From: a virus
Virus record (IMG/VR): IMGVR_UViG_3300026510_000004
Span: 1 to 42,544 of that record
Reading direction: 5' to 3' (one strand)
DNA: 42,544 bases
Below, piece after piece: positions 12,995 to 15,568 of this stretch. The translations under genes and the position numbers were made by a program. Under the pieces are notes generated by a model, which was not told where the DNA came from, ran no database searches, and saw only the letters and a list, made by a program, of their open reading frames with translations. Position 1 is the stretch's first letter, and each line of letters begins with the position of its first letter.

Positions 12995-13053
12995 ATTTAA
13001 AATATTCCATACACCCTTACCCAAAGAAGATCGCAAATGAAAAAACTAAATAA
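12988..13053 (+). CDS. Very short leader-like ORF before the helicase (21 residues)
   Basis: Reads MSDLKYSIHPYPKKIANEK and ends 17 nt inside the helicase gene. Its ATG is in the 3' arm of the hairpin at 12969-12994. It could couple translation of the helicase, but no ribosome site is clear and it may be chance. Confidence 0.25.
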   Translation: MSDLKYSIHPYPKKIANEKTK

Positions 13054-15568
13054 AACAGACTTGCATGATTATCAAAATCAAACAGTGCAACATATTGTTG
13101 GTCATTCTGACTCTATGTTATGGCTCGGTTTAGGTTTGGGGAAAACTATATCATCACTAACAGCGTTCGATATTTTGCAAAAAATAGGTGCAATCAATGC
13201 TGTTTTAGTTATAGCACCTCTGCGCGTATGTCAGCTGGTGTGGCGTCAAGAGGGGTTGAAGTGGCAACATGTGTCCCACCTCACATTCAGTGTAATGTGT
13301 GGTAGTGAGAAAAAGCGCATTAGGGCATTGTTTAGAAAAGCCGATGTATATTTAATAAACTATGAATCTTTATCGTGGTTATCGATCCAACTTCAGCATT
13401 ATTTTATTGATCAAGGTAAACCTTTGCCCTTCGACATGTTAATTTTTGATGAAGTTTCAAAGGTTAAACGATCTGCATCAAAGCGGTTTGAAGCGTTCTC
13501 CCCGATTGCGCAGTATTTCAATCGCAGAGTTGGGCTAACCGCCAGCCCGTGTTCCAACGGCTTACACGATTTGTGGGCGCAGTTCTTCATGCTCGATGGT
13601 GGTGCTAGATTGGGCACACATTACCCCACATTTCAATCTGCATTTTTCCACCAAGTTGGTCAGGCACAACACAATAAGTGGGAACCGTATAAAGATACCA
13701 GAGATATGATTGTAAATCGCATTAGCGATATGACCATTGAGATGTCAGCGGCAGATCATTTAGACATGCCAGAATTATTAGTTGTTGATGTTGAGATCGA
13801 CTTACCACCAGCTAAAGCTAAATTGTATGCTGAGTTGGAGAAAAACTTCTTCATTGAGCTTGATGAGGGAGGTAGCATCGAAGTGTTCAACAGGGCGGCA
13901 CTGTGTAATAAACTTTTACAATTTTCAAACGGCATTGTTTACAACTACCCTGACCCCGATAATATGGAGAATCAGGTTGAAGAGTTTATCCACGATGAGA
14001 AGTATAAAGCTTTGGATGACATCATCGCTAACTCGGGCGATGAACCAATACTCTTGGCATATAACTTCAGTAGCGAGCGCAGAGAAATCGAGAAACGGTA
14101 TCCCAAAGCTAGATGTCTAACAGGTGTCAGCGAAGAAGAAGCTATTGAAATTATGACCAAGTTCAATAATGGTCAAATAAAACTGCTAATTGGTCATCCA
14201 TTATGTTTAGTCGGTGACACTGAGGTTTTGACCGAAACCAGAGGATGGGTTAAAATAACAAACATCAAAGCTTCCGAGCGTGTTTTCGATGGTGTTGATT
14301 TTGTTGCGCATGATGGGTGCTCATATTCAGGCTACTCGACAGTAATTGATGTTTTCGGGATTGGCATGACACCTGAGCATCGGTTGAAAATAAACGAACA
14401 GTGGGTTAAAGGTAAAGATGTTAGAGATAATTCAAATACTAGACGAGAAGCGTGTTACACCTACAAGGGAAATGATACTTACATTAGTGCAATGTGTCCG
14501 ATGCAGCGGTGTGAGCAAAATGACACTTCAATCCGTAAAAAAGCACAACAAGTTGCATCGGACACATTGTCAACTGTGTCAGCAAGACAAGTTTCACATG
14601 ATGAGTCGCACAAGATTTTACTCGATATGGCGGCACATGCGAGGACGAGCAAACGATCATTTGGACGAAAATTATCAAGGTCGTGGGGTTGGTGTCTGTT
14701 TGGAATGGGAAGTGTTCGAGAACTTTTACAACGATATGTATTCGACATATTCGGATCACCTAACAATAGAGCGAATCGACGTGAATGGAAACTACGAAAA
14801 GTCAAATTGCAAGTGGATCACAATGTTCGATCAACAAGCAAACAAGAGAACAACAAGACGAGTAAGTTACAACGGTGTGCAAATGCACTTGGCCGAATTG
14901 TGCCGGCAGTCGGGGTTTTCCAAAACAATGCTACTCGTGAGATTGAACAAAGGAATGAACGGAGATCAAGCCGTGGCGGATGCTCGAAGATCGAACTACA
15001 GCAAGCGTGGAGCAAAACACGAAACATCGATTGGTCAACTGACGATGAGCGCACTGGCAACACAGCTAAATGTATCAGAAGCAACAGTGTCGAGACATCT
15101 GAAAACAAACAAGATCGAGAAGTTAATCGCAAAGAACATGTCTACGACTTAGTTAACTGTGGTGTTCGCAAACAGTTCCTTGTTCGGAACCCATCTGGTG
15201 ATATATTCATATCGCACAATTCGGCTGGTCATGGTATAAACCTGCAAGAGTCATGCCACATTGTTGTGTGGTTCGGGTTAAACTACAACTTAGAATTATA
15301 TGAGCAGTTTATTGGTCGCATTGATCGCCAAGGTCAAAGCAATCCTGTGCAATGTTTCCGCATAGTTTGTAGAGACACAATGGACTATGCTGTGATGGGG
15401 GCTCTATATAATAAAGATAAGACGCAATCAGCAATGCGTGATGCCATCGGATCGTATAGAGGTAAGGCTATTGATTCTGAAGTGTTGTACGAAGATATGA
15501 GCGTTGGACCACCACCACCAAAAATCGCACCACCACCACCAAAAATCGCACCACCACCACCAAATTGA
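13037..15568 (+). CDS. SNF2-family helicase interrupted by an intein
   Basis: 843 codons. The helicase parts are residues 1-389 and 729-843, about 504 residues after splicing, normal for phage SNF2 proteins. Motif I is G31-LGLGK36-T37; the Walker B box is DEVSK, motif III LTASP, and motif VI QFIGRIDRQGQ. Motif V, SAGHGINLQ, is broken exactly before its Ser by the intein (residues 390-728): the upstream half ends LLIGHPL. It should be an ATP-driven DNA translocase acting with the VRR-NUC nuclease. The C-terminus is a PPPPKIA repeat. The start has only weak AAGA upstream. Confidence 0.9.
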   Translation: MKKLNKTDLHDYQNQTVQHIVGHSDSMLWLGLGLGKTISSLTAFDILQKIGAINAVLVIAPLRVCQLVWRQEGLKWQHVSHLTFSVMCGSEKKRIRALFRKADVYLINYESLSWLSIQLQHYFIDQGKPLPFDMLIFDEVSKVKRSASKRFEAFSPIAQYFNRRVGLTASPCSNGLHDLWAQFFMLDGGARLGTHYPTFQSAFFHQVGQAQHNKWEPYKDTRDMIVNRISDMTIEMSAADHLDMPELLVVDVEIDLPPAKAKLYAELEKNFFIELDEGGSIEVFNRAALCNKLLQFSNGIVYNYPDPDNMENQVEEFIHDEKYKALDDIIANSGDEPILLAYNFSSERREIEKRYPKARCLTGVSEEEAIEIMTKFNNGQIKLLIGHPLCLVGDTEVLTETRGWVKITNIKASERVFDGVDFVAHDGCSYSGYSTVIDVFGIGMTPEHRLKINEQWVKGKDVRDNSNTRREACYTYKGNDTYISAMCPMQRCEQNDTSIRKKAQQVASDTLSTVSARQVSHDESHKILLDMAAHARTSKRSFGRKLSRSWGWCLFGMGSVRELLQRYVFDIFGSPNNRANRREWKLRKVKLQVDHNVRSTSKQENNKTSKLQRCANALGRIVPAVGVFQNNATREIEQRNERRSSRGGCSKIELQQAWSKTRNIDWSTDDERTGNTAKCIRSNSVETSENKQDREVNRKEHVYDLVNCGVRKQFLVRNPSGDIFISHNSAGHGINLQESCHIVVWFGLNYNLELYEQFIGRIDRQGQSNPVQCFRIVCRDTMDYAVMGALYNKDKTQSAMRDAIGSYRGKAIDSEVLYEDMSVGPPPPKIAPPPPKIAPPPPN
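14204..15220 (+). other. Intein (Hint domain) in SNF2 motif V, about 339 residues
   Basis: Residue 390 is the catalytic Cys of block A (CLVGDTEVLT). Block B is GMTPEHRLKI with the expected Thr and His. At the C-end block F reads VYDLVNCGVRKQFLV and block G DIFISHN, with Ser as the +1 extein residue. These are the features of a class 1, self-splicing intein. The region between blocks B and F, where an endonuclease domain would normally lie, is low-quality sequence rich in Arg, Ser and Asn. It contains an HNH gene in another frame (14418-15152). The intein frame has no stop anywhere. Confidence 0.92.
14418..15152 (+). CDS. HNH homing endonuclease nested out of frame in the intein
   Basis: 244 residues, one base ahead (+1) of the intein frame. 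It has a likely zinc knuckle (CVRC then CQLC), the phage HNH core FYSIWRHMRGR, YQGRGVGVCLEW and IERIDVNGNYEKSNCKW, then QQANKR, followed by two DNA-binding helical segments (AELCRQSGFSKTMLLVRLNK and LATQLNVSEATVSRHLK). AAAGG lies five bases before ATG 14418, so internal initiation is plausible; ATG 14472 is an alternative. It ends within intein block F. It should cut intein-less alleles to spread the intein. It could also be made by a frameshift from the intein. Confidence 0.88.
   Translation: MLEIIQILDEKRVTPTREMILTLVQCVRCSGVSKMTLQSVKKHNKLHRTHCQLCQQDKFHMMSRTRFYSIWRHMRGRANDHLDENYQGRGVGVCLEWEVFENFYNDMYSTYSDHLTIERIDVNGNYEKSNCKWITMFDQQANKRTTRRVSYNGVQMHLAELCRQSGFSKTMLLVRLNKGMNGDQAVADARRSNYSKRGAKHETSIGQLTMSALATQLNVSEATVSRHLKTNKIEKLIAKNMSTT
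15509..15562 (+). repeat. In-frame 21-bp tandem repeat (2.6 units)
   Basis: Two identical units and a partial third encode PPPPKIA at the helicase C-terminus, a disordered proline-rich tail. Confidence 0.9.

Follow-up and report, generated by a model that had tools for sequence, protein, structure and literature searches.

The virus DNA analysed here (the window: the whole stretch of 42,544 nucleotides, IMG/VR record IMGVR_UViG_3300026510_000004) very probably carries a mobile intein together with an HNH endonuclease that is produced as a protein of its own, through internal initiation. We would give about even weight to a broader statement: that out-of-frame nesting of the endonuclease is standard in a large and diverse family of phage inteins, with separately captured HNHs and in both alternate frames; that the ribosome-binding site is provided by codons of the splicing domain; that splicing and homing are encoded as overlapping genes under two independent reading-frame constraints; and that this generalisation has not previously been described.

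The host ORF (13037-15568, + strand), 843 open codons long, encodes a phage helicase of the SNF2 type (E=1.7e-121 to phrog_62, DNA helicase; 1e-16 to Pfam SNF2-rel_dom). It is one single ORF, not a gene broken into two ORFs as for split inteins. Its parts, all on the + strand, are the following.

13037-14203 (+): N-extein, SNF2-type helicase up to motif V (...LLIGHPL), from phrog_62 and Pfam SNF2-rel_dom
14204-14494 (+): N-terminal splicing (HINT) half of the putative intein, aa 1-97, from same-site conservation (24 inteins), AlphaFold2 and Foldseek
14204-14206 (+): Cys1 of the intein
14369-14380 (+): block B, TPEH, intein aa 56-59
14408-14412 (+): Shine-Dalgarno-like AAAGG within intein codons, 5 nt 5' of the nested ATG
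14418-15152 (+): nested HNH-type endonuclease gene, +1 frame, 244 aa, stop TAG at 15150-15152, from PHROG families
14495-15118 (+): in-frame intein linker, DNA common to the HNH gene, stop-free and predicted disordered
15119-15220 (+): C-terminal splicing half of the putative intein, aa 306-339, from the same-site alignment and AlphaFold2
from 15140 (+): block F of the intein, VYDLVNCGVRKQFLV
15215-15220 (+): block G (SHN), terminal His-Asn of the intein
15221-15568 (+): C-extein, from Ser +1 and motif V onwards (SAGHGINLQ...) to the PPPPKIA repeats, with a Helicase_C match

Once the intein is removed, the joined exteins measure 504 aa and align through the junction with the uninterrupted helicases of phage DSL-LC05 (46%) and Vibrio phage MZH0603 (43%), which are intein-less alleles at the same point. 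At its C-terminus (15507-15565) the helicase reads PPPPKIA-PPPPKIA-PPPPN, a short and perfect repeat that makes this tail prone to slippage. When 10 kb of the window were compared with phages by megablast, no match was returned.

The intein measures 339 aa (14204-15220) and splits helicase motif V just before SAGHGINLQ. The initial annotation had placed an intein with blocks A, B, F and G at precisely this point, and both the motifs and the alignments with the two uninterrupted helicases agree with it. The residues of a class 1 intein are present: Cys1, TxxH of block B, block F, His-Asn and Ser +1. In an alignment of 24 inteins of this one helicase site (the window and IMG/VR contigs), every sequence has Cys1, T56/H59 of block B, and D315 and G320 of block F, while His338/Asn339 are kept in at least 90%, Ser coming next. 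AlphaFold2 models residues 1-97 and 306-339 of the window intein with pLDDT about 90; most of the linker stays below 50 (30-50 for the greater part of residues 105-305). As the initial annotation had proposed, the model was compared with known inteins: the top Foldseek matches in the PDB are Ssp DnaB, Spirulina DnaX, gp41-1 and other inteins or HINT domains (best E 0.009, probability 0.98-1.00), so that the predicted structure has the HINT fold expected of class 1 inteins. The match to the NCBIfam model intein_Nterm (TIGR01445) is weak (E=0.085). phrog_93 and phrog_26005 also match the inteins. Because sequence profiles by themselves are weak, the assignment as intein is founded on motifs, fold and empty site. 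Taken together, sequence and model predict a self-splicing element of class 1 type.

The complete HNH gene that had been announced at 14418-15152 in the +1 frame is indeed a 244-codon ORF, lying wholly inside the helicase ORF. It matches the PHROG HNH endonuclease families phrog_3377 (E=1.7e-44) and phrog_374 (E=1.1e-38), and such families match 21 of 21 relatives of the nested protein. Its N-terminus has zinc-ribbon-like cysteines (C26/C29/C51/C54), CxxC...CxxC being common to the relatives, and is followed by the HNH-family core (aa 57-183) and an extra C-terminal helix-turn-helix (aa 205-231). The AlphaFold2 model reaches a mean pLDDT of 81.8. Pfam HNH models did not match the nested ORF and a PDB fold search with its model gave nothing significant; the label of endonuclease is therefore taken from the PHROG families. 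The extra helix-turn-helix, MSALATQLNVSEATVSRHLKTNKI (window 15030-15110, HNH frame), is absent from the aligned same-site relatives. It makes the window intein about 30-40 aa longer than these, both frames still being open.

The arrangement had been presented as unusual. The nested layout is real but not singular, since it is found throughout a large phage intein family. Three IMG/VR scans and GenBank phage loci yielded 185 distinct related phage intein loci; single window proteins used as queries found few or no close relatives, and an N-terminal alignment (A1) was needed. A substantial HNH lies in frame +1 or +2 at 166 of the 185 loci and in frame 0, where canonical large inteins have their endonuclease domain, at none. 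In 164 of these 166 the intein frame is open (107 with the HNH in frame +1, 57 in frame +2). Loci outside the 166 are mini-inteins, remnants or the ends of contigs. When GenBank phages were searched with the intein by tblastn, DNA polymerase inteins came up in APSE-1, Caulobacter GB2A and relatives, Shewanella SFCi1, Vibrio 97.13, EBPR siphovirus 2, Pseudomonas MR14, and phages of Streptococcus and Gardnerella; every full-size GenBank polymerase intein examined has the same nested layout. A scan of bacterial genomes with a further alignment (A2) gave one relative, in an Alphaproteobacteria MAG, and a plasmid search with the intein N region gave no match. These sequence comparisons support the view that an out-of-frame HNH is the standard layout of this family in SNF2 helicases and DNA polymerases.

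Some contigs of the survey carry the family twice. In IMGVR_UViG_3300002732_000012, two related intein N-termini (L114 and L196) lie about 1.3 kb apart near a DNA polymerase region, which suggests one gene with two inteins of the same family. Another phage contig, IMGVR_UViG_3300034198_010819, has one of its two copies (L102 and L223) at the SNF2 helicase site. At what appears to be a same DNA polymerase site (ELA|C...HN|[CS]G[YF]GG), the HNH is in frame +2 or +1 depending on the allele (L019, L022 and L072 compared with L020 and L029), and the start offsets differ.

The start of the HNH gene is fixed. In all 22 full-length SNF2-site loci its start codon lies at nucleotide offset +214 of the intein, and is ATG, or GTG in two of them. 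Intein codon 72 varies (GAT, AAT, CAT, GGT, AGT, thus D, N, H, G or S) and always gives ATG or GTG: it is always NAT or RGT followed by G, preserving an RTG start, the NAT:NAC ratio elsewhere being 117:107. Upstream of the start, the intein codons for W-V-E-A commonly spell GTGGAGGC, and Glu is encoded by GAG in 13 of 17 loci, compared with 37 of 105 outside this position. The mean anti-Shine-Dalgarno pairing energy at the SNF2-site start is -7.4 kcal/mol, against -2.3 at random same-phase sites, and none of 2,000 draws was as low. In the window itself, AAAGG with 5-nt spacing is a moderate Shine-Dalgarno sequence, weaker than the usual GGAGG of the family. Similarly low energies are found in the polymerase +1, +2 and Streptococcus/Gardnerella classes, where the start offset is 202, 145 with AAAGGAGGT in Gardnerella phage AB1, and 92 in the +2 class. 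For polymerase +2 loci, offset 194 was rejected as start, the pairing energy supporting offset 92 instead. In the +2 class (L019, L022, L024, L072, L109 and others), the motif WDGxEW gives a Shine-Dalgarno-like GGA(C/T)GG together with the ATG (GA-ATG-G).

The intein frame had also been said to stay open over the whole region, and this holds: the overlap of the window has no intein-frame stop within the 843-codon ORF, and 22 in the third frame. When the window HNH was recoded with its own codons, the intein frame acquired on average 13.6 stops and 0 of 2,000 trials were stop-free; with the codon usage of the phage the mean was 24.6, and 0 of 10,000 trials were stop-free. In a set of 83 full-length nested loci (the first IMG/VR scan with the N-terminal domain plus GenBank loci, L054 left out), stops were absent from the intein frame in all 83, where 0.40 would be expected if the HNH codons were shuffled synonymously, and the third frame of the same regions contains 1,340 stops; the loci surveyed share ancestry and so do not count as independent trials. 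In ten free-standing HNH relatives, each alternate frame contains 3-55 stops; the HNH family itself is therefore not prone to open alternate frames. A chance open frame was rejected, as synonymous recoding of the window HNH is never stop-free and the third frame is rich in stops.

Could the two frames be only apparent? A sequencing or assembly artefact, in which the HNH truly belongs to the intein frame and one base is wrong between them, might be suspected from a single metagenomic contig such as the window, and the intein frame is broken in two surveyed loci (L054, by a one-base indel, and L250). We find this hardly credible, as with a single wrong base the intein frame would still contain stops, the HNH is never in frame 0, and the isolates APSE-1, Caulobacter GB2A and Shewanella SFCi1 display the same layout. 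Such an error, named in the initial annotation as what would overturn its reading, is excluded as a general explanation because, of the 166 loci where the HNH is substantial, 164 show the layout. It is also quite improbable that the HNH is reached by programmed ribosomal frameshifting from the N-terminal half of the intein, resulting in an intein-HNH fusion, although both frames are briefly open together before the start in some loci (14394-14418 in the window). The RTG start and the Shine-Dalgarno sequence are conserved, and in L076, L107, L080, L083, L072, L077 and L090 the HNH-frame segment opens right after a stop, the first codon after it being the proposed start. Since this stop directly precedes the HNH start, an upstream fusion is excluded in these seven loci, and frameshifting was rejected as the general route. 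From these sequence features, internal initiation appears to be the best-supported route to the HNH protein.

It remains to weigh which of the two frames matters. Pairwise comparison over the helicase-site overlap gives a mean amino acid identity of 0.505 for the HNH frame, 0.279 for the intein frame and 0.284 for the third, and divergence at HNH codon positions 1, 2 and 3 is 0.39, 0.34 and 0.60; the N-terminal splicing half before the overlap is conserved (0.62 identity, codons 1-73). Because of these frame identities and codon-position divergences, we consider that the HNH protein is conserved and that the intein linker is only kept stop-free. A linker conserved as protein domain was rejected, its identity being equal to that of the third frame. 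The same figures make it very improbable that the intein frame alone is of consequence and the HNH frame a degenerate passenger. The HNH is broken or deleted in some alleles (L032, L033, L028, L040), but its codon positions bear the mark of protein-level constraint, whereas the linker in the intein frame is no better conserved than the third frame, and in the window the HNH has its full length and every residue that is invariant in the family. Conversely, the intein could be dead, the linker blocking splicing, and the element a non-splicing selfish insertion like ShiLan in a helicase that is dispensable or tolerant. The linker is long and predicted to be disordered, and ShiLan insertions are maintained although no splicing domain can be detected in them (PMC11855218); we judge this reading unlikely all the same, given that all splicing residues are kept across the 24 inteins, that the intein frame is held stop-free against strong odds, and that the splicing blocks are retained by mini-inteins which lost most of the HNH.

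A mobile element that splices and homes would leave several allele states, and related SNF2 alleles had been proposed as a check. Empty, mini-intein and nested-layout alleles were all found: the one helicase site is occupied by full elements or by mini-inteins with or without HNH remnants (L033, 147 aa; L040, 197 aa; L060, 145 aa), or is empty. This distribution matches what a homing cycle predicts. In Streptococcus phage PhiSdyV1524-fexAoptrA (L032), a stop breaks the HNH frame but not the intein frame; beside the intact Streptococcus alleles L020 and L030, it represents a natural splicing-only allele. Some pairs of loci are more alike in their inteins than in their exteins (65% against 39% between the window and L038), yet the two conservations are still correlated (Spearman 0.52); these sequence comparisons suggest horizontal movement of the intein. 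In the HNH tree, which has an arbitrary root and several long branches, the SNF2-site HNHs form one clade (100/100), and the polymerase +1 and +2 groups lie elsewhere with free-standing enzymes among them, a topology which suggests that HNHs were captured more than once.

We infer splicing, HNH translation, cleavage and homing from these sequence patterns, and propose the following scheme. The full 843-aa helicase precursor would be translated, and the intein is predicted to excise itself from it; the linker of about 200 residues would be a disordered and incidental by-product of reading through another gene. Ribosomes would also start internally on this mRNA, at the ATG of position 14418, with a ribosome-binding sequence built from intein codons, to give a free HNH-type DNA endonuclease. 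This enzyme would cut intein-less helicase alleles and thus lead the element as a whole to home. The endonuclease would be kept by selection on the HNH frame, and the host helicase by selection against intein-frame stops. Two products, with splicing uncoupled from homing, had been foreseen in the initial annotation; stop avoidance, the conserved internal start with its Shine-Dalgarno sequence, the constraint at HNH codon positions and the HINT-fold model with disordered linker all support this.

Intein homing is normally described as the work of one polypeptide that splices and cuts. An overlapping endonuclease gene need not fold inside the precursor, can be produced in amounts different from those of the intein, and can decay without immediately breaking the host protein. 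The family also offers a clean natural case of overprinting with measurable constraint, absence of stops in one frame and protein selection in the other. Among the annotated GenBank records examined, the nested ORF is listed only for APSE-1; these endonuclease genes have been overlooked, and intein linkers filed as endonuclease-free should be re-read in all frames.

The arrangement had been thought undescribed, which is true in part. The record of Hamiltonella phage APSE-1 (GenBank NC_000935) annotates an HNH gene, P46, inside the DNA polymerase gene P45. As in the window, a continuous intein in a DNA-metabolism gene holds an HNH in the +1 frame, and the N half of the window intein matches P45 (tblastn, 37% over 67 aa, E=9e-6); the host gene and HNH subfamily are different, and the record annotates a shorter P46. 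As far as searched, no comment on the P45/P46 overlap was found in that record. Out-of-frame HNH insertions without splicing domain have been reported in mycobacteriophage methylases (ShiLan domain, Pacc40; PMC11855218, 2025). They resemble the window in having an alternate-frame HNH in a stop-free host ORF, with homing inferred, but they are thought not to splice, whereas a splicing domain is clearly present here. Leaderless initiation was proposed for them, no ribosome-binding site having been found (PMC11855218), in contrast to the Shine-Dalgarno sequence of the window family. PMC11855218 cites a 2025 preprint on the 'non-canonical architecture' of actinobacteriophage inteins (10.1101/2025.01.02.630785), with reference to which it states that overlapping frames are frequent in actinobacteriophages. 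Our literature search, with that preprint beyond its reach, found no paper on an intein with a nested out-of-frame HNH.

Free-standing phage HNHs (phrog_3377, phrog_374) are the protein family of the nested ORF, from which they differ by many stops in their other frames. Split inteins whose two halves flank a free-standing endonuclease gene, or 'fractured genes', likewise make the endonuclease apart from the splicing domain; in the window, by contrast, host gene and intein are unbroken throughout. With canonical in-frame-endonuclease inteins such as PI-SceI and mini-inteins of DnaB/DnaX type, the window element shares the HINT fold, the class 1 residues and insertion in a conserved motif of a DNA-metabolism enzyme. 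It differs from the canonical inteins in that the endonuclease stands outside the intein polypeptide, as an overlapping gene in another frame.
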